From contig JAZKBR010000002.1 in the NCBI GenBank assembly GCA_040388535.1, forward strand, positions 644,485 to 708,484: a stretch of 64,000 nt of DNA, written 5' to 3'. Source of the DNA: Gemmatimonadota bacterium. GTDB taxonomy: Bacteria > Gemmatimonadota > Gemmatimonadetes > Gemmatimonadales > GWC2-71-9. Below are positions 2,412-58,686 of the stretch, piece by piece. The translations under genes were made by a program, and so were the position numbers. The notes under the pieces are model-generated. The model saw only the letters and a program-made list of their open reading frames with translations. It ran no database searches and was not told where the DNA came from. How positions within the stretch are numbered: the stretch's first letter is position 1; every line of letters begins with the position of its first letter.

Positions 2412-3331
2412 GGGCGCACTCCCCGCGGCGGCGCCATCACCTTGTGGAAGAGACAGGGCTCGTCGGCATACACCGGCGGGAACTTCCAGCGGGTACCATC
2501 CCAGCGAATCATTCCGCTCGACGTGATGATCTCGTCGATGCCATCCTTGTCGGCGTCGACGGTGCCGTAAATGTCGACGTTGCCGCTGCTGCGGGCGATC
2601 GGATTGCCCCAGCCATCGATGATCCAGGTGCCGGTGGTGTTCGGTGTGCCGTCGGCGTAATCGTCGCGGAGCCAGGCCGAGTAGACGGCGAGGTTGTAGC
2701 CGCCAGGGCCGCGGACGCCGAAGAGCTGCTTCTTGCGGAAGCCGGCGTCGAGTGAATCGGAGTAGAACGAGTAGAAGAGAAAGCCCGCAGCGCGTTCGGT
2801 TTTCGGATTGATCGCCGTCTTGTACCGCGCGAATGCCGAGTCGGCCCAGCGCCGGTAGGAGCTGAACCCACCAGCGCGCGCGAGTGGTGGTGGGGTGCGC
2901 TGCGTCGGCATTCCGTGGGCGCCGGGGATCACGACGGCGAATGCCGAGGTGGCCGGAGCATTGAGATCGAAGAGCCAGCCTGGGTGCGCCTTCTCGTCAC
3001 ATGCGGCTCGCCACGACAGCGGCGGATCGAAGCGTTGCCGCGAGGCGATGGTGGCCTGCTTCGCGCGCGAGAGGGTGGCGCCGTTGTCGAAGAGAAAGAG
3101 CGTGACGGTGTCGCCGACCGATCCGATGGGCATTTGGCCGAGGGAGTCGAACTGCGCGGCGACCGGTCGGCGCGGTGCCCGGGCGGGGAGCTGCTTGACC
3201 TGCCCGCCAGCGATGCCCCAGTCGGCGGTGCGTTCGGGCATCGGGTCGGGGCGGGGCCGCACCTGGGCGGCAAGCGCTGGCGCAACAGTGGCAAGCAACA
3301 GGGCGACGAGCAGGTTGGGACGATGCGTCAT
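2408..3331 (-). CDS. Exported protein of unknown function
   Basis: The 307-residue product has an N-terminal signal peptide (about residues 1-22, ending LAAQ). I do not recognise a family. The C-terminal third contains VDADKDGIDEIITSSG, an Asp-rich calcium-binding-like or FG-GAP-like loop, followed by an aromatic segment. This suggests a repeat from an integrin-type propeller, or a record-like secreted protein. No catalytic motif is evident. It is the first gene of the set continuing into the EamA transporter, with which it shares a 4-base overlap. The start is chosen because the signal peptide begins there. Confidence 0.65.
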   Translation of the reverse strand: MTHRPNLLVALLLATVAPALAAQVRPRPDPMPERTADWGIAGGQVKQLPARAPRRPVAAQFDSLGQMPIGSVGDTVTLFLFDNGATLSRAKQATIASRQRFDPPLSWRAACDEKAHPGWLFDLNAPATSAFAVVIPGAHGMPTQRTPPPLARAGGFSSYRRWADSAFARYKTAINPKTERAAGFLFYSFYSDSLDAGFRKKQLFGVRGPGGYNLAVYSAWLRDDYADGTPNTTGTWIIDGWGNPIARSSGNVDIYGTVDADKDGIDEIITSSGMIRWDGTRWKFPPVYADEPCLFHKVMAPPRGVRP

Positions 3332-3401
3332 CAGGTGTCTCCTTTGACTCCAAGCAGTTGTTCACTCCAGATCCGGCTCAGGCGCCAGCGAGTCGCTTCG
3401 G

Positions 3402-3417
3402 GGAGACCGCGGTCTCC
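3402..3417. repeat. Perfect 16-bp palindrome
   Basis: GGAGACCG is followed directly by its reverse complement CGGTCTCC, giving a symmetric site with no spacer. It lies about 70 bases upstream of the start at 3331 on the minus strand. That position fits a dimeric regulator operator, though it could also be a restriction-modification target or chance. Confidence 0.45.
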
Positions 3418-3540
3418 GCTTTCAAAGTATCGGCCGCACCGGGCGCCAGCGCCGCATCGATCGCGTGCTCGAGCAGCGACGCGGGGAGCGGTGACGGGGC
3501 ATGGCTCAAGTTAAACCGATCTTACGGCCGACCGTTGCTC

Positions 3541-3631
3541 GCGCCGCGCCTGGCGCAGCGCAGATCTCGCCCCCACTCGAACCCCCAGGCTTCCGTCGGT
3601 CCGATGATCTGCGCCGCGCAGGGCGCGGCGC
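3541..3631 (-). terminator. Long imperfect inverted repeat after the M16 gene
   Basis: The arms at 3541-3567 and 3605-3631 match at 24 of 27 positions as reverse complements, with a loop of about 37 bases. It begins 13 bases after the TAG of the minus-strand M16 gene. No T-run follows, so termination is inferred from place and stem strength only; an intergenic repeat element is the alternative. Confidence 0.4.
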
Positions 3632-3643
3632 CAGCACAATTCG

Positions 3644-6451
3644 CTACGGTACCGGCTTGTTTTCCGGCAGCAGCACAAAGCGGGCGACGCGGGTCGGGTC
3701 GAGATACTTCCGGGCCGCGTCCTGCACGATCGCGGGGGTCAGCGCGTCGAGGCGCGCACCCCAGCCGAGGATCTCCTCGAGCGGCGCGCCCTTTTCGGTG
3801 TGGTCCCCAATCATTCCTGACCACCAGAAATTGGTCTTGACGTCGACCTCGGTGCTGCGCCGCGCCTGTTCGACATACTTGTGGAGCTCGTCGCCGGTCG
3901 GACCATCGGCGCGGAGCGCCGTGATCACGTCGAACGCGGCGGCCCAGAGTGTGTCGGCCTGAGCCGGCGTCGAGGTGAAGGAAATCACCGTCTGGTACTG
4001 CTGCTTCGGGATGGCGGTGACGTTGGTGTTGACCTGCACGCCATAGGTCGCTCCCATCGCCTCGCGCAACTTCTCCAGCAATCGCGTCTGCAGGATCTCC
4101 CCGACCGCATCGGCCGCGAGCTCCTCGGCGGAGGTTGTGACTTCGGCCTTGCCCGTGAAGAAGACAACCTGGGTGCTGACCGGTTCCTTCCCCTTGTGAA
4201 TCAGTTTGGTGATCTGCCCCGCGGGCGGCCCGACCGAGCGATCGCGCCACTTCTCGTGACGACCCTTGGCTGGCAGGCCGCCGATCCAGCGTTCAACCAG
4301 CGGACGCAGCGAGTCGAGGTTCACGTTACCGACGATGGTGAAGGTCCAGTCGCTGAAATCGGCAAAGCGTTCCTTGTAGATCGCGAGGGCACGATTGACG
4401 TCAAGCGTCTCGAAGCGGGCGAGGGTCATCGGCTGCGACCGCGGTGAGTTCATTCCCATCGTGAGAGTCACAGTGTCCGAGAACGCGGTCGCGGGCTGGA
4501 GGTCGCGATTGGCGAGTGCGGTCCGGACCTGGCTCCGGAATGCCGCCACGGCCGCAGAGTCGAGCCGTGGCGCAGTGACCGTGAGGTAGAGGAGTTCGAA
4601 GAAGGTCGCGAGGTCCTTCGGGGCGGTGAGGCCACCGAGTTCCTGCGTCGTTTCCGAGATGATGGGAAAGGTGACGGCGACCTTGCCCGCCATCCGTCGG
4701 CGAAGCGAGGGCGCATCGAACTGGCCATAGCCGCTCTGCTGCACGATCGCAGTCGCCAGCATCCCGTTGATGAGGTCCTTGTCCTCGAGGAGCGAGAGGC
4801 CGCCCGGCGCACTGCCGCCCACGACGATCTGGTCGGCCTTGAAATCGGTGGGCTTCACCAGCACACGCGCACCATTCGAGAGCCGCCATTCGGTGATGCC
4901 CAGCGTCGGATGCTGGCGGGTGCTCACGATGCGTCCGGGAGTCGGCTGCACCGGGACGAGTGGGCCGGCAACGGTGGTCTCGGTCCACGGCGCGACGGTC
5001 GCAGTGTCGGTGCGATCAAGGATGGCGAGCAGCTGTTCGCGGGTCGGCATTGCCGCCGCGGATTTCTCGGGCGCGCGGACGGCCAGGAAGCGATCGGTTC
5101 CGCGTGCGCTGCCGCGAATCGTTGCGTTCACTTCATCGCGCGTGATGGAAGGCAACAGGCGCTGCGCGAGTTCGAGGCGAGTGCGGGCGGAGACCACGGT
5201 GTTGCCGTTGAGGAAGGCATCAACCAGCTGGTTGACGAAGGAGCCGGAAAACTGCTTGTCCTGTTCGGCGGCTGACTGCTCGCGTCCGCGCAGCAGCGAG
5301 GCCTTGGCCCGTTCGAGTTCGGCCGGGAGCACGCCGTGCGCGTCGAGACGTCGACGCTCGGTGAGCACTGCCTCGAAGGCTTCCTTGCTCTTCCCTTCCT
5401 TCGCGTTCACCGTGAGCGCGAACACTTCGATATCTCTCACCAGGCGCGATGGGCCGAAGAAGGCGCCGACGAACGGCGCATCCGGCTTCCGCGCGAGATC
5501 GGAGAGGCGCTGCCCGGCGATGCTGGAGACCAGCGAACTCACCAGCTGGCGACGCTCATCGGACTCGAGACGCCAGGCGGGAAGGCTCGGTCGCCGAACC
5601 AGCAATTGAATCGACTCGCTGGTGAGCTCCGGATCAGTTGCGATCGAGAAGCGCGTGCCGGCGACTTCCGGCACCGGCGCGTCGATCCGCGGCCGAGGAG
5701 ATGCGGGCGAACGAAGCGCGCTGAAGCGATCGCGGATGAGGGCCTCGAGTTGCGCGACAGGGACATCGCCCACGGCGACCACGGCCATCAGGTCGGGGCG
5801 ATACCAGTCGCGATAGAAGCGACGGATCGGCGACGGCTCCGCGTGGCCGATCGTGGCCGTGTCACCGATCGGGAGCCGCTCGGCGTAGCGGGATCCGGCA
5901 AAGAGGAGCGGGAACTCCTTGTCGCGCAGGCGCGAGCCGACGCCCAGCCCGCTGCGCCACTCGCCGAGAACTACACCGCGCTCGTTCACGACTTCGCTGG
6001 AGTCGAAACGGACGCCGGTCGCCCAGTCCTGCAGGATGTCGAACGCACGCTCCACAATTGCCGGCTTGTCGCTCGGCACCGGCAGGATGTAGACGGTCTC
6101 ATCGAAGGAAGTGGAGGCGTTGAGGTCGGCGCCGAATCGCACGCCGATGGATTCGAGATATTGCACCAGGTCGTTCTTCGCGAAACGAGTGGTGCCGTTG
6201 AATGCCATGTGCTCGACGAAGTGGGCCAGTCCCTTCTGGTCGTCATCCTCGAGGACCGATCCCGCGCGGACCACGAGGCGCAATTCGAGTCGGGCAGCCG
6301 GCGTGGCGTTCTGCTTGATATAGTAGTGCAGGCCGTTGGGGAGAACGCCGGCGTGCACAGTCGTGTCGGCGATGAGTGCCGGGCTCTGCGCGGAGAGTGA
6401 TGTGGCGGCGAAGAGCGCGAAGGAGGCGAGAATCCACAGGGGGCGAGGCAT
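3644..6451 (-). CDS. M16-family (insulinase-like) zinc metallopeptidase, exported
   Basis: The 935-residue protein has a signal peptide (residues 1-22, LSAQ end). The inverted zinc motif HFVEH (His77, Glu80, His81) of M16 peptidases lies in the first of four alpha/beta repeats. The length matches PqqL-like single-chain M16 enzymes, with active N-half and inactive C-half (the second half has no HxxEH). It should act in the periplasm on peptides or misfolded proteins. The start at 6451 is favoured by the signal peptide. A GATGGGC heptamer array sits only 8 bases upstream of the ATG, where the ribosome-binding site would normally be. Confidence 0.92.
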   Translation of the reverse strand: MPRPLWILASFALFAATSLSAQSPALIADTTVHAGVLPNGLHYYIKQNATPAARLELRLVVRAGSVLEDDDQKGLAHFVEHMAFNGTTRFAKNDLVQYLESIGVRFGADLNASTSFDETVYILPVPSDKPAIVERAFDILQDWATGVRFDSSEVVNERGVVLGEWRSGLGVGSRLRDKEFPLLFAGSRYAERLPIGDTATIGHAEPSPIRRFYRDWYRPDLMAVVAVGDVPVAQLEALIRDRFSALRSPASPRPRIDAPVPEVAGTRFSIATDPELTSESIQLLVRRPSLPAWRLESDERRQLVSSLVSSIAGQRLSDLARKPDAPFVGAFFGPSRLVRDIEVFALTVNAKEGKSKEAFEAVLTERRRLDAHGVLPAELERAKASLLRGREQSAAEQDKQFSGSFVNQLVDAFLNGNTVVSARTRLELAQRLLPSITRDEVNATIRGSARGTDRFLAVRAPEKSAAAMPTREQLLAILDRTDTATVAPWTETTVAGPLVPVQPTPGRIVSTRQHPTLGITEWRLSNGARVLVKPTDFKADQIVVGGSAPGGLSLLEDKDLINGMLATAIVQQSGYGQFDAPSLRRRMAGKVAVTFPIISETTQELGGLTAPKDLATFFELLYLTVTAPRLDSAAVAAFRSQVRTALANRDLQPATAFSDTVTLTMGMNSPRSQPMTLARFETLDVNRALAIYKERFADFSDWTFTIVGNVNLDSLRPLVERWIGGLPAKGRHEKWRDRSVGPPAGQITKLIHKGKEPVSTQVVFFTGKAEVTTSAEELAADAVGEILQTRLLEKLREAMGATYGVQVNTNVTAIPKQQYQTVISFTSTPAQADTLWAAAFDVITALRADGPTGDELHKYVEQARRSTEVDVKTNFWWSGMIGDHTEKGAPLEEILGWGARLDALTPAIVQDAARKYLDPTRVARFVLLPENKPVP

Positions 6452-6459
6452 GGTGGCTC

Positions 6460-6483
6460 GATGGGCGATGGGCGATGGGCGAT
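6460..6483. repeat. Heptamer array A: GATGGGC x3
   Basis: Three direct GATGGGC units plus a partial fourth (GAT) lie in the 48-base gap between the metallophosphoesterase stop and the M16 start. Unlike four other loci in this window there is no inverted partner nearby. Confidence 0.85.
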
Positions 6484-6499
6484 AGACTCGGCCGGAAAT

Positions 6500-7330
6500 C
6501 TAGAGCGTGGTCACTCCTGGTGCGCCGTACCGCGCACGAGCAACCCGCACGCGAAGGTTCGGGAGGATCGCGGCGCTCGCCTCCACGTGGGTGTGACCAC
6601 AGAGCACGGTGAGATCGTGCTCAGGGTGTCCCGCGGCGAATCGGCGGAGCACACTCCCGGTCGCACCGCAGACCAGCAGCGGTTGCCAGGCCGGAGATGC
6701 CAACCGGCCGCGGGTCGGCAGCGCTTCCGGGAACGGCGGCACGTGGGTCGCCACAAGGATTCGGTTCGCCACGGCCGCCGCGCGTTCGAGCAGCGTCTGG
6801 AGCCGGGCGGCGTCGGCATCGGCCAGGGCGCGTTTCACGAAGAGTTTGGCGCGTCGCGAGTCGTGCACCGCGAGCTCGGCGATCAGCCGGTCGTCATTGA
6901 GCACGAGCGGAGTATTGAGGGGATCGCCGAACCGCCCATCGGCCCAGCCATCGACGCCGACCAACGCCGTGCCGGATGCCAGTGTCACAACTCCAGCAGG
7001 TGGCAGCCACTGGATATCGGGTCGTTGTTCGGCGAGTGCGGTCGCGCGGTCGCGGACCTCGCCCACCCCCGCACCATAGTGATCGTGGTTGCCCAGGAGA
7101 TAATAGACCGGGCAGCCAGCGGCGCCGGCAATGGCGGTGAGGTCGTCAACGAAGCGCGAGGCGAGGGAGATGTCGCCGGTGAGAACAAGGGTTTCGCCGT
7201 GCTGCTCCTGCAATGCGGCGAGAAATCCCTGGCGCGCTTCCGGACCGGCGTGGTCGAGATGGATGTCGGTGGCCCACAACGTCGGCATTCCGGAAGCTAG
7301 CGGACGCACCGGTCGGGCGATCATCTTCAA
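6500..7330 (-). CDS. Metallophosphoesterase (calcineurin-like)
   Basis: A cytoplasmic-looking protein of up to 276 residues with all metallophosphatase signatures in order: DIH near residue 22, GD near 52, GNHDH near 82, ATHVPP near 195 and GHTH near 244. These ligate a dinuclear metal centre and hydrolyse phosphomonoesters or diesters; the substrate cannot be read. No signal peptide is present. The start is uncertain: Met15 (about 7288), just before the first beta strand, is a plausible alternative to 7330. It is transcribed toward the M16 gene, separated by the heptamer array. Confidence 0.88.
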   Translation of the reverse strand: MKMIARPVRPLASGMPTLWATDIHLDHAGPEARQGFLAALQEQHGETLVLTGDISLASRFVDDLTAIAGAAGCPVYYLLGNHDHYGAGVGEVRDRATALAEQRPDIQWLPPAGVVTLASGTALVGVDGWADGRFGDPLNTPLVLNDDRLIAELAVHDSRRAKLFVKRALADADAARLQTLLERAAAVANRILVATHVPPFPEALPTRGRLASPAWQPLLVCGATGSVLRRFAAGHPEHDLTVLCGHTHVEASAAILPNLRVRVARARYGAPGVTTL

Positions 7331-54987: not shown

Positions 54988-55019
54988 AGTCGTATAGATG
55001 GGGAAGATAAGCGGCGGAC

Positions 55020-55076
55020 GAGAAGCGAGAAGCGAGAAGGGGGAAGCGGGAAGGGGGAAGGGAGAAGGGAGAAGGG
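55020..55076. repeat. Heptamer array F, interrupted by a transposon
   Basis: Eight 7-base units: GAGAAGC, GAGAAGC, GAGAAGG, GGGAAGC, GGGAAGG, GGGAAGG, GAGAAGG, GAGAAGG, then G. The array stops where the transposon begins and resumes at its other end as GAGAAGGGAGAGGATGG. It lies upstream of the DEAD-box gene. Confidence 0.85.
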
Positions 55077-55093
55077 GGTACTGGTACAGTTTG
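55077..55093 (+). repeat. Left terminal inverted repeat of the transposon
   Basis: GGTACTGGTACAGTTTG, a perfect match to the reverse complement of 58568-58584. The next base inward does not match, nor the next outward. Confidence 0.9.
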
Positions 55094-55140
55094 ACGAAAT
55101 GGCGCCGTTGCTGACGATTCGCGTGGTGCTATGTTCTGTC

Positions 55141-55359
55141 ATGCCCAAACGTCGTACAACGCCAGCCCGCCCGACCGACGTAAATGAGCTAGCCCGTCGC
55201 ATCGTAGCGATCTCGACCGGCGAGGAGTCGGACGAGTCGCCAACGGTGGACCAGAAGGCCGTCAAGCGGGGGGAGGCGCGGTCGGCCAAGCTGACGCCGG
55301 AGGAGCGGAAAGCCATCGCCAAGAAGGCCGCTGACGCCCGATGGCACGATAAAGGCTAG
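55141..55359 (+). CDS. Small passenger protein with KAADARW C-terminal motif
   Basis: The 72-residue, highly charged product starts at ATG 55141. It opens DVNELARRIVAISTGE and ends RSAKLTPEERKAIAKKAADARWHDKG. I recall proteins with this pattern, sometimes with KGG-like repeats, scattered through soil bacteria, without known function; basic C-termini suggest nucleic-acid contact. It lies 48 bases inside the left transposon end, transcribed inward, with a hairpin after its stop. A role in transposition is possible but not shown. Confidence 0.65.
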   Translation: MPKRRTTPARPTDVNELARRIVAISTGEESDESPTVDQKAVKRGEARSAKLTPEERKAIAKKAADARWHDKG

Positions 55360-55368
55360 AAACACCAA

Positions 55369-55392
55369 GGGCGCCCCCGCGAGGAGGCGCCC
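55369..55392 (+). terminator. Hairpin after the first passenger gene
   Basis: GGGCGCC (55369-55375) pairs with GGCGCCC (55386-55392). It begins 10 bases after the stop at 55359; no strong T-run follows. Confidence 0.4.
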
Positions 55393-55468
55393 GAGGCGCT
55401 AAGGGCGCTAGCTAACTACTTTTTGCATGTACCACCTCCCACGGGGCTTCCCGCTCTGTTGGGGTTCC

Positions 55469-55513
55469 CGAACGGCCAGAGGACCTTTCCACGGGTCTCC
55501 CTCTGGCCGTTCG
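55469..55513 (-). terminator. Perfect 14-bp hairpin after the second passenger gene
   Basis: CGAACGGCCAGAGG (55469-55482) and its reverse complement (55500-55513) flank a 17-base loop. It lies directly beyond the minus-strand stop at 55515, so it probably ends that transcript; no T-run. Confidence 0.6.
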
Positions 55514-55514
55514 T

Positions 55515-56081
55515 CTATTCGTCGTCGCCCAGCACCTCGCTCAAGGTTGGCTTCGCCTTCTTCGGCTTGCCGGGAAGTGGTACGGTGGCCTTCTTCCCGG
55601 TGACCGGCTTCGACGGGGCCGGGGCCTTCTTGGGCGCCGCCGCCGATCCGGAATTGGGATACCAGGACATCAGACCCCACATCCCCCGCCGCACCTGCTT
55701 GATCTGCCGATTCTTGCTGAGGCGCTTCAGGGCCTCGCGCACGTTGTTGTAAGCCTTGGCCGCGTCATGTTCACGGCCACCTTCAACAAAGGCGCGGGCC
55801 ATGTCCTGAGGCCCCTGCGGGTTGCCCTTGCCCATCTTGTCGAGGTAGGCCCGGACCGCGTCGGTTGCACTCATGCCGACGAACTCATCTGGGGCGATCT
55901 TCTTGCTCCCGCCTCCGGAGGAGGACCGCTTTACGGGTCCGGCAGGCTCCCCGAACTCGTCGTCGTCCTCAAACCCATCGCCTTCGCCAAGGATGGCCTC
56001 GGCGGCAGCGATCAGTTTCCCGATCTTGGCGTACTGGTCGCGCCACTGCGCCAGATTCTCGGCCAGATCATCGTGGTTCAT
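55515..56081 (-). CDS. Passenger protein with predicted DNA-binding segment
   Basis: The 188-residue product begins MNHDDLAENLAQWRDQYAKIGKLIAAAEAIL (coiled-coil-like helix), followed by an acidic linker. A compact helical segment (ATDAVRAYLDKMGKGNPQGPQDMARAFVEGG, then NNVREALKRLSKNRQIKQVRRGMWGL) has the layout of a winged helix. The tail is Lys/Pro-rich (KKAPAPSKPVTGKK). I do not recognise a family. It is transcribed toward the left end, with a GGGAG site before its start and a hairpin after its stop. It could regulate the transposon; that is inference. Confidence 0.6.
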   Translation of the reverse strand: MNHDDLAENLAQWRDQYAKIGKLIAAAEAILGEGDGFEDDDEFGEPAGPVKRSSSGGGSKKIAPDEFVGMSATDAVRAYLDKMGKGNPQGPQDMARAFVEGGREHDAAKAYNNVREALKRLSKNRQIKQVRRGMWGLMSWYPNSGSAAAPKKAPAPSKPVTGKKATVPLPGKPKKAKPTLSEVLGDDE

Positions 56082-56401
56082 GGTGATCTACTCCCTCGGG
56101 CCAAACGTGGTTAGCTTACTGCCGTTGCCAGAGATGGCAGCGACGAGGAGAGCGGCAAACCAGCGCCGCCTACGGTTTCATATCAGTACCCTCCTCTCTG
56201 ATTTCACGAAGGCTCTGGGCTTCCCTCGAAAAGACGCCCCGGAGCCTTCGTGCGTTGTACCCTTGAGTACCAATCAAGCGAAGCGCCCCCATCGCCGCAA
56301 GTCCCCCGTCTTCGACCGCCCCCAAACCGCCCCCAAGTGGTCCATTGACTTTGGGTAAACCATCAAGCATATTAGTTCAGTTACAATAACTGAGCGAGAC
56401 C
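56082..56401. promoter_or_regulatory. Divergent intergenic region of the transposon with two hairpins
   Basis: It separates the minus-strand passenger gene from the transposase. At 56205-56219 and 56238-56252 lies a 15-bp stem with one mismatch (a G-U pair in RNA), beginning CACGAAGGCTC. At 56377-56393 TCAGTTA-CAA-TAACTGA is a small symmetric site 9 bases before the transposase ATG, a possible operator. No minimal IS end is found here. Confidence 0.5.
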
Positions 56402-57247
56402 ATGAACCGCCTGTCCACTGCCCGCCGAACCCAGATCCTTGCCGCCCTCTGCGAAGGGGCGTCAGTCAATGCGACTGCCCGTCAGACCGGCGCGAGCAAG
56501 GTCACGATTTTGAAGCTCTTGGCCGAGATCGGAGAGGCGTGCCTGGAGTACCAGCGGGCAACGTTCGTCAACCTGAATTGCAAGGTGATTCAGTGTGACG
56601 AGATCTGGTCGTTCGTTCACTGCAAGCAGGCGAACGTGCCAGATGACGAGAAGGGTCGTGGCCGTGGCGATGCGTGGATCTGGGTGGCGTTGGACTCCGA
56701 GTCGAAGCTGGTGCCGTGCTGGCACATCGGAGCGCGGGATGCGGCGGCGGCCGCCTATTTCATGGAGGACCTTGCGTCGCGCTTGTCGCATCGGGTTCAG
56801 CTGACGACCGATGGTTTCCGGAAGTATCTCCGGGCTGTCGAAGGCGCGTTCGGTTGGGGCCAGATCGACTACGCGATGCTCCAAAAGATCTACGGCCCCG
56901 CTATCACCGGCACTCACCGCTACTCACCGGCGGCGGTTGTCGGCGCCCGTGCGGAGCGCATCATGGGAAACCCCGACGCGGAACTCGTCAGCACTAGCCA
57001 TGTTGAGCGCCAGAATCTGACCATGCGGATGAACGTGCGTCGGCTGACGCGCCTCACCAACGGCCATAGCAAGAAGATCGAGAACCACGGCCACGCTATC
57101 GCCCTACACTACATGTACTACAACTTCTGCCGGAAGCATGAGACACTGACCAAGGCCAAGGGCGGGATACACACAACGCCAGCGATGGCGGCTGGCGTTG
57201 CAGATCACGTATGGAAGCTGGAAGAGGTGGTGGGTTTGCTGGGGTAA
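56402..57247 (+). CDS. IS1-family DDE transposase, single-frame
   Basis: The 281-residue product starts at ATG 56402. The N-terminal helix-turn-helix (about 8-40: LAALCEGASVNATARQTGASKVTILKLL) corresponds to IS1 InsA. The catalytic core follows in the same frame, with Asp in QCDEIWSFV, the second Asp in TTDGFRKYL and Glu in SHVERQNLTMRM. No frameshift is needed, unlike IS1 InsA-InsB. The HYMYYNFCRKHETL C-terminus is typical. The TIRs of the surrounding element lie about 1.3 kb away on each side, so it seems to move the whole 3.5-kb unit. Confidence 0.9.
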   Translation: MNRLSTARRTQILAALCEGASVNATARQTGASKVTILKLLAEIGEACLEYQRATFVNLNCKVIQCDEIWSFVHCKQANVPDDEKGRGRGDAWIWVALDSESKLVPCWHIGARDAAAAAYFMEDLASRLSHRVQLTTDGFRKYLRAVEGAFGWGQIDYAMLQKIYGPAITGTHRYSPAAVVGARAERIMGNPDAELVSTSHVERQNLTMRMNVRRLTRLTNGHSKKIENHGHAIALHYMYYNFCRKHETLTKAKGGIHTTPAMAAGVADHVWKLEEVVGLLG

Positions 57248-57251
57248 CCGC

Positions 57252-57851
57252 CTAGTCTTTCTTGGACCGTTTCTTCCCCTTCTCTTTTAGGATCGGTCCC
57301 AGCGGCAGGGCTTCGTCGAACTCTTCGGCCACCCCAATTTCGGTTTGCTTGAATATGTCGTATCGCATACTGAGGTTTTCGGGTGGTTCTTCCTGGTTCT
57401 GGACGTATTTCCGAATGACTTTTTGCGCCTGCCGCTCCCCTTTGTTCGCGACAAACTTGTATTTCATATACCACTGAACCTTATCAACGTGCGAGTCTAG
57501 GGTGATGTACCGACACCCCACACTGCCCGCGATATTTCGCCCGATCCCCACGACGTAGTCGAGAAGCGCCTCCCCGATACCCTGCCGAACCTGGGATGCG
57601 CAGACGGCCAACCGAGCCAGTTTCAGGGCAGGCGCGGAGGGGTAGTGAACGTCTTTGGGTCGTTCCTTGAATTGGAGTCTGATCGAGTCGGCCAGCAGGG
57701 AGAAGTACCCAACGAGGCGGCCCTCGTACCAGACCAGGTAGGTCTGGGTCACATTGGCCCTCATATCCCGCTCAGCATCTTCGGCGAGATATTCGTTCAT
57801 ATCGGCTTTTTCACAAGCAAAGCCCTCCGGGACAACAAACCCGGAGGGCAA
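57252..57851 (-). CDS. GNAT-family acetyltransferase (passenger gene)
   Basis: The product has about 199 residues. Motif A of GNAT proteins is seen as LARLAVCASQVRQGIGEALLDYV (acetyl-CoA loop Q/RxxGxG/A). EGFACEKADMNEYLAEDA before it resembles the N-terminal pattern of TacT-like toxins, but the tail is extended and basic (KEKGKKRSKKD). The start is unclear: TTG 57851, or an upstream CTG 57887, 2 bases after the stop of the preceding gene. The frame upstream (FDRLDIQLLPSGF) looks coding. Transcribed with the 56-residue gene. Substrate unknown. Confidence 0.75.
   Translation of the reverse strand: MPSGFVVPEGFACEKADMNEYLAEDAERDMRANVTQTYLVWYEGRLVGYFSLLADSIRLQFKERPKDVHYPSAPALKLARLAVCASQVRQGIGEALLDYVVGIGRNIAGSVGCRYITLDSHVDKVQWYMKYKFVANKGERQAQKVIRKYVQNQEEPPENLSMRYDIFKQTEIGVAEEFDEALPLGPILKEKGKKRSKKD
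57822..57849 (-). repeat. Hairpin at the 5' end of the GNAT gene
   Basis: GCCCTCCGGG (57822-57831) pairs with CCCGGAGGGC (57840-57849) around 8 bases, followed on the transcript by CTTTGCTT. It lies in the first codons. It could act as an attenuator, or be chance coding symmetry (PSGFVVPEGF). Confidence 0.45.
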
Positions 57852-57888
57852 TAATTGAATATCCAGCCGATCGAAGTCGATCGCCAGA

Positions 57889-58059
57889 CTAGACCCGCTT
57901 GGACGAATTGCGGTCGTTAATCAGCTTGAAAAGACGGTCGGCGCGGTCAATCTGCCGAATACGCTGTTCGGTGTCCGGCGTGCCCCGCCGCAGTTCATTC
58001 TGGATTTTTGTGGCCTGCTTCCCCTTAACCGCTGGGGTAGGCGTCAGTGGCTTTGCCAT
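57889..58059 (-). CDS. 56-residue basic passenger protein
   Basis: ATG 58059 to TAG 57889 with an excellent AAGGAG ribosome-binding site 7 bases upstream. The product, MAKPLTPTPAVKGKQ then helical RRGTPDTEQRIRQIDRADRLFKLINDR, is basic. It lies directly before the GNAT gene in the same direction. The place suggests an antitoxin for a TacT-like GNAT toxin, but it has no ribbon-helix-helix (DUF1778) pattern, so this is not claimed. Confidence 0.6.
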   Translation of the reverse strand: MAKPLTPTPAVKGKQATKIQNELRRGTPDTEQRIRQIDRADRLFKLINDRNSSKRV

Positions 58060-58567
58060 ATCGTTCTCCTTTCTAAGTCCAGCGCGGGGAAACCGAATAA
58101 TCCCCGAAATACTACGTGTGTCGTTTTGTTGACCTGTGTCACAAAGTGTTGTGCTAGCGACACGCTAGCGGCCTGCTAGCACAGTACGCGTAACTAGCTA
58201 AACCCTTGCGTTACAGGGACTTAGGCAATTACCAGTTTTGACTTTTCCATATCCTGAAAAACTGACTCGCAAGAATTGGGCGAATATTCCCCGAATTCTG
58301 AGAAAATTGATCAATTCTTTGTCACGTCACTCCTAACGGGTGACGAGTGGGCAACGTTCCTAGTGACACACGCCGACGTGACGTTACGTGACTAATTGTT
58401 TATTCGTCACGAATAGTAACTTTCGGCTGGAAATTGGAAAACCAAAGAATTGAATAAATCCCGCTAGGAAAGTGATTCAATGTTGAATCGCTTTATTGCG
58501 CCATAACATTTCGGAGCATCGCAATTACCTAACCCCCACCGTGCCACGGCATTACAGGCCGATTGCC
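58060..58567. other. AT-richer noncoding end of the transposon
   Basis: No gene is supported. The composition is markedly AT-richer than the chromosome around it. It holds three GCTAGC sites (58153-58158, 58164-58169, 58175-58180; the outer two extend as GTGCTAGC and GCTAGCAC, inverted) and a cluster of seven GTCAC/GTGAC boxes (58321-58410). The promoter for the minus-strand 56-residue gene should be here. Confidence 0.6.
58321..58410. repeat. Cluster of seven GTCAC/GTGAC boxes
   Basis: GTCAC at 58321, 58326 and 58406; GTGAC at 58340, 58363, 58378 and 58388 (start positions). Seven copies in 90 bases is dense for a 5-mer pair. It resembles an iteron or operator array and lies 158 bases inside the right end. 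Confidence 0.65.
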
Positions 58568-58584
58568 CAAACTGTACCAGTACC
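58568..58584 (-). repeat. Right terminal inverted repeat of the transposon
   Basis: CAAACTGTACCAGTACC, the inverted copy of the left end. The eight bases that follow (58585-58592, GAGAAGGG) repeat the eight that precede the left end. Confidence 0.9.
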
Positions 58585-58686
58585 GAGAAGGGAGAGGATG
58601 GGGCCGGGGGGATGGGCCCGCGCTAGATTCCCGGCTCACTCGTCATACTGCGCCACTTCAGGACCCTGACCCCCGGGGGTGATTTT

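Follow-up and report, generated by a model that had tools for sequence, protein, structure and literature searches.

Among mobile elements, IS1 is the textbook minimal case; its left end holds a promoter, and its InsA protein binds the ends and acts as a repressor. Other insertion sequences (ISs) carry passenger genes and are recognised under the concept of transporter ISs (tISs) (PMC9330008, PMC3129680, PMC7986276). Toxin-antitoxin (TA) genes in Tn3 elements and defence cargo in Tn7-like elements are likewise already known, as is the IS1 family itself. Here, a unit of 3508 bp is described at positions 55077-58584 of a 64,000-nucleotide stretch from a Gemmatimonadota bacterium (assembly GCA_040388535.1, contig JAZKBR010000002.1, positions 644,485 to 708,484), referred to below as the window. 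The unit is very probably an autonomous transposon belonging to a large group of IS1-type tISs, in which a small accessory gene would encode an InsA-like partner of the transposase and the cargo is often of TA or anti-phage type. The initial annotation of the window had proposed an IS1-type unit with extra genes from a possibly uncharacterised transposon group, and such a group is real and very widespread, with ~100 further elements.

A scan of genomes with the transposase returned 80 loci, with identities of up to ~60% over the full length and up to 82% in short fragments. They come from Pseudomonadota, Acidobacteriota, Chloroflexota, Zixiibacteriota, Aminicenantes, Ignavibacteria, Patescibacteria, and others. 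Elements were resolved by seeking, around each transposase, inverted ends starting with GG together with an exact 8-bp duplication. Fifty-five distinct loci were obtained in this way, and in 52 of them the ends match at 15-18 of 18 bases. When the duplication was shifted by 3, 5, 7 or 11 bp as a control, the best end match was 12/18. Three loci with an end match of 12-14/18 (L069, L074, and L119) were left out of the proven elements. The ends of the group are of the kind GGTAGTGGGTCAGTTTGAA, GGTA(G/C)TG...CAGTTTGAA, with the consensus GGTAGTGGGTCAGTTTGAAA, in which GG and TG are invariant, and the duplications lie at different sites. The genome elements measure 1.0-6.4 kb, with a median of 3.1 kb; none of those resolved is a bare unit of accessory gene and transposase. 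A second, held-out set, from plasmids and viral contigs, comprises 48 elements; their duplications are of 44 distinct kinds, and a few near-duplicate contigs are therefore among them. Three of the four plasmid copies retrieved are complete. Excision in silico of an element with one copy of its duplication restored a CAP domain at L026 (117-241, junction ~136) and an SBP_bac_8 domain of a solute-binding protein at L051 (79-372, junction ~93), and gave a continuous 504-aa frame across the junction at L053. Other copies with ends of this kind, different flanks, and 8-bp duplications, for which the initial annotation had proposed a search, thus exist in numbers elsewhere; the exact element has none in its own genome.

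In the window copy, an inverted-repeat search found terminal repeats identical at 17/17 positions, as noted at first: the left one (GGTACTGGTACAGTTTG) lies at 55077-55093 on the plus strand and the right one at 58568-58584 on the minus strand. The octamer GAGAAGGG, also seen initially outside both ends, occupies 55069-55076 and, directly outside the right end, 58585-58592. The insertion site is a purine-rich intergenic repeat adjoining a DEAD-box helicase gene, with direct repeats of GAAGCGA/GAAGGGA at 55000-55076. As GAGAAGGG-like octamers recur within this target, the single duplication is weak by itself, and the evidence is carried by the family. The position of the duplication inside a purine repeat could also be read as a sign that ends and duplication coincide by chance, or through an assembly artefact, in a low-complexity stretch. 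Such an origin is extremely improbable, given that the ends, identical at 17/17 positions, fit the family consensus and the accessory gene has the same 64-bp spacing as in relatives; at the level of the family it is refuted by the ~100 elements with such ends and duplications. A composite transposon has been ruled out, as the unit has one transposase, without two flanking ISs, and the genome holds a single pair of the 17-bp ends.

The transposase is encoded on the plus strand at 56402-57247 in one open frame of 281 aa, with an N-terminal helix-turn-helix and an RNase H-like core. It matches the Pfam family DDE_Tnp_IS1 (3.6e-7, 31 bits against a cutoff of 24.1), and the single-frame IS1-type transposase of the initial annotation is upheld; its score for the NCBIfam IS1 equivalog is 63.5 bits, below the cutoff of 100. 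Comparison by eye with InsB of IS1A revealed a common catalytic signature, ER.NL..R....RL.R, and others. The AlphaFold model has a predicted local distance difference test score (pLDDT) of 90, and its Foldseek matches are DDE transposases and integrases, the best being the ISCth4 transposase (1.8e-6). In a tree with IS1A and with cyanobacterial and Deinococcus members, the outgroup branches are long (7-8 changes per site) and the placement is unsure. The programmed InsA/InsB frameshift of classic IS1 members is not present in the 281-aa frame, and such a frameshift is not known to be required of every member of the IS1 family.

When the open reading frames (ORFs) were clustered, two families proved to be almost universal among the elements: one is the transposase, the other a small basic protein. 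In the window, the latter is a helical protein of 72 aa (isoelectric point, pI, 10) encoded at 55141-55359 on the plus strand. By profile, the accessory gene was detected in 48 of the 55 genome elements and in 46 of the 48 held-out elements. The consensus of the protein reads KRPRDxNQLAxxIVxxATGE ... GRLGGLKGGKARAxKLTPExRxEIAxKAAxARW, with a median length of 81 aa and a median pI of 10.4; its model consists of three helices, and one plasmid annotation labels it 'histone H1'. The accessory gene is the first inside one end and reads inward, starting mostly less than 90 bp from the tip and most commonly at ~65 bp; the window gene starts at 64 bp, a spacing like that of its relatives. In L012 the gene has moved to the opposite end and still lies 65 bp from the tip. 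Across 298 genomes of Gemmatimonadota, it occurs within 3 kb upstream of 16 of 17 near-full-length transposases, on the same strand, a count which is our own tally and includes some loci from the training alignment of the profile. Judged from these sequences, the 72-aa ORF is the second core gene of the group and not a passenger. All four genes noted at first beside the transposase are present (ORFs of 72, 188, 199, and 56 aa), and the two putative DNA-binding passengers among them have parted: the 72-aa gene belongs to the conserved core, and the 188-aa gene stays with the cargo.

The 72-aa family might alternatively be a mere passenger, for instance a nucleoid-like protein of use to the host, outside the machinery of transposition and its regulation. 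Several points speak for this reading. The accessory role is putative, about one in eight genome elements lack the gene, and accessory homologues exist with no transposase detected nearby. A weak profile resemblance to the N-termini of actinobacterial IHF (4itq, 0.015; 6tob, 0.06) would also fit a general DNA-binding protein; an IHF-like identity was itself rejected, the match of 0.015 being too weak to name a family. On the other side, the accessory gene stays while all other cargo is exchanged, and it keeps its place as the first gene inside one end, reading inward from a start whose spacing to the tip varies rather little, also where the gene has moved to the other end, in L012. A passenger is thus unlikely, and the assignment as a second core gene is preferred.

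At the left end of the window copy, a predicted promoter TTGCTG-N16-TATGTT (55108-55135, plus strand) leaves 5 nt between its -10 box and the ATG and would be near-leaderless. The left ends of many members hold a promoter of the type TTGAC-N17-TATnnT whose -10 box is followed within a few bases by the start codon, which suggests that the accessory gene is mostly expressed from a near-leaderless promoter ~65 bp from the tip. Upstream of the transposase, a predicted promoter scoring at least 9/12 was found in 72 of 92 elements (control 4.9%), and in 54 elements 5-9 nt separate the end of its -10 box from the ATG, so that the transposase transcripts are probably leaderless. The window promoter of this kind, TTGACT-N17-CATATT (56345-56373, plus strand), scores 9/12. 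The palindrome TGCTTGAGCGCTCAAGCA often lies in the spacer of the transposase promoter and also around the left-end promoter; the window spacer keeps half of it (TCAAGCA, 12/18). Matches of at least 12/18 were counted at 40% for the region upstream of the transposase and at 35% for the left end; for other parts of the same elements, the figure is 1.9%. These counts describe the palindrome and do not test it independently, because it was found by reading the same sequences. A 15-bp inverted repeat that could form a hairpin is also present upstream of the window transposase gene (56205-56252).

Between these conserved parts, the cargo differs from element to element. Among elements of the Roseobacter lineage, DNA identity is 67-88% for the left end and accessory start and 75-86% for the transposase and right end. 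The middle is mostly without any DNA match, and it follows that cargo is swapped within a fixed backbone. TA and defence genes, restriction enzymes among them, are numerous in the cargo. Eight cargo proteins match PD-Lambda-2, an anti-phage system (PMC9519451). Other matches are to HigB toxins, IrrE-type proteases, NYN, Fic, and N6/N4 DNA methylases, and further ones to BglII, Mrr, GmrSD, PIN, Panacea, nSTAND, and P63C. A RES-Xre pair lies beside the transposase of one plasmid copy. At a plasmid copy of the element in L176, a gene for a Shedu immune nuclease (2455-3633) stands just outside the left end.

Some individual elements show further features. In a Gemmatimonadetes bin, the element at 5966-7547 of L079 has matching ends and duplication and a truncated transposase, whose last 92 residues are 82% identical to the window protein, together with a ParE-like toxin gene; it is likely a non-autonomous derivative. 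Within the large genome of phage vB_BpoS-Gurke (L181) are a transposase of 32% identity and one end of the GGTAGTGGCACAGTTTGAA type, unannotated there. In L035, the joined flanks of the element at 4197-6894 translate as repeated AVVALQNSIGYN, and the insertion site looks as if it were spanned by an array of clustered regularly interspaced short palindromic repeats (CRISPR). A 1.3-kb element on a viral contig (L232, 4518-5840) carries a tRNA gene with the anticodon TTA at 4776-4859, in the cargo slot and beside a truncated accessory gene; such a tRNA would read UAA stop codons. This element had been considered as a cargo-free two-gene IS, which was rejected on account of the truncation and the occupied slot.

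The cargo of the window copy comprises three genes on the minus strand. The 188-aa protein (55515-56081) has no Pfam match and by eye resembles a winged helix. Across ~80 aa, ORFs at L027, L047, L124, L125, and L128 share 33-38% identity with it, which suggests a recurrent, winged-helix-like cargo protein. The second gene (57252-57851) encodes a GNAT acetyltransferase of 199 aa, and the third (57889-58059), 37 bp upstream of it and preceded by a strong ribosome-binding site, a basic protein of 56 aa (pI 11.3). Both of the latter had been recognised at the outset; the GNAT enzyme now appears to be of toxin type, with the 56-aa protein as its candidate antitoxin. GNAT toxins top the PDB matches of the GNAT protein; KacT is the only one named, and we judge from their entry codes that the other chains with E<0.01 belong to its toxin class too. 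This class acetylates aminoacyl-tRNA (PMC9177977, PMC7595197). In KacAT, TacAT, and AtaRT, whose toxins the window GNAT resembles best, a small gene likewise lies directly upstream of the toxin gene; their antitoxins carry a DUF1778/ribbon-helix-helix (RHH) domain, which was not recognised in the window, where the basic 56-aa protein stands instead. The pair is probably a TA module with a non-RHH antitoxin.

It could also be that the GNAT protein is an ordinary acetyltransferase, such as a resistance or metabolic enzyme, and the 56-aa gene an unrelated small neighbour. The missing RHH/DUF1778 domain of known GNAT pairs agrees with this, the 56-aa protein having no family match at all, and so does the cofactor motif, VxxGxG in place of Q/RxxGxG, one residue off in the structure-match alignment. 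The toxin class of the matches argues in the opposite direction, as do the DUF1778 genes that adjoin some plasmid relatives and the recurrence of TA-type cargo in the group, which leaves an ordinary enzyme rather unlikely. No homologues of the GNAT and 56-aa proteins were found in the other elements compared. Upstream of this putative TA pair, the right part of the unit (58060-58567) is non-coding and AT-rich (46% GC). GCTAGC/CTAGCTAA motifs are repeated in it and again at 55395-55425, just downstream of the accessory gene, and might be element-specific binding sites. An Rfam search of the element, including this right part, gave no match.

From one side to the other, the backbone comprises an end that bears a promoter and the accessory gene, the variable cargo slot, the transposase (sometimes with more cargo after it), and the opposite end. 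In the proposed mechanism, the transposase would bind the ends, synapse them, and insert the complete unit with a stagger of 8 bp. In the place of InsA, the accessory protein may serve as a partner that binds the ends and has a regulatory or architectural role, and the palindrome TGCTTGAGCGCTCAAGCA at both promoters could couple the expression of the accessory and transposase genes. The window cargo would probably be a GNAT toxin with its 56-aa antitoxin, together with the winged-helix protein; in the group as a whole, the cargo, often a TA or anti-phage module, might stabilise the element or benefit the host. More tentatively, and leaning towards doubt, a phylum-crossing IS1-type group may have swapped InsA for a dedicated accessory protein that controls transposition, and may serve as a compact, general shuttle on chromosomes, plasmids, and phages for TA and anti-phage modules, a new non-RHH GNAT pair among them. 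The accessory protein would then bind either the ends or the palindrome common to the promoters, and transposition or its control would depend on it.

Several observations weigh against the interpretation as an autonomous transposon with an InsA-like partner and TA or anti-phage cargo. The host genome holds no second copy of the element, and the 17-bp ends occur there as one pair. In nine genomes of the same genus, the right flank of the window locus is not beside the helicase gene and is not syntenic, and no syntenic empty site was found; the flanks of a same-genus element (G009) are not syntenic in genomes of the genus either, again with no syntenic empty site. Metagenome bins are the source of many elements of the group. 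No Pfam or other recognisable family matches the accessory protein, its model has no fold match among solved structures, and for these reasons its role rests on conservation and position; the window protein also lacks the glycine-rich middle. The left-end matches to the palindrome partly overlap the codons for the accessory N-terminus (KRSS), and amino-acid constraint is therefore an alternative source of that signal. Many cargo genes match nothing, and the tally of defence and TA cargo is descriptive.

No description of the IS1-type group, its accessory gene, its promoter and palindrome layout or its defence cargo was found in the literature, a search that did not cover ISfinder. ISfinder lists long single-ORF IS1 members, the subgroup ISMhu11, with sizes of up to several kb, and some members of the group may therefore be catalogued. 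It is quite possible, if not our expectation, that the group is already there and that merely its annotation is missing. NCBI labels several homologues 'IS1 family transposase', the ends of IS1A (GGTGATG) and of the group both fit GGnnnTG, and tISs are an established concept, all of which accords with such a listing; the literature searched holds no mention of ISMhu11, and none of the accessory gene, promoter, and defence cargo. If the interpretation is true, a very common relative of IS1 with a constant second gene and defence or TA modules would be a small, overlooked carrier, and its fixed ends and accessory gene would provide a simple search key for new modules of this kind.

Compared with IS1A of E. 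coli (L182), the window unit has the same IS1-type DDE signature, ends of the form GGnnnTG (GGTACTG in the window), an 8-bp duplication (8-9 bp in the IS1 family), and a small first gene inside the left end, 55 bp from the tip in IS1A and 64 bp in the window. IS1A, at less than 0.8 kb, uses a programmed frameshift and lacks cargo, whereas the window unit measures 3.5 kb and has one frame, a different first gene, and cargo. Members of the Tn3 family also carry TA genes inside the transposon, near its own promoters (PMC7157771); the window unit differs in its transposase and has no recognised resolvase or res site. In Tn7-like elements, defence cargo is exchanged between conserved transposition modules (PMC8649781), as here, although the present group has an IS-sized backbone with one transposase and no recognised targeting proteins. 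The unit also agrees in layout with tISs, in which a single transposase and IS-type ends enclose passenger genes unrelated to transposition (PMC9330008, PMC3129680): the GNAT, 56-aa, and 188-aa genes lie between matching ends, and the cargo varies between relatives. ISDsp3, one member of the IS6 family (PMC7986276), is an isolated example, whereas here a whole group shares a constant second gene.

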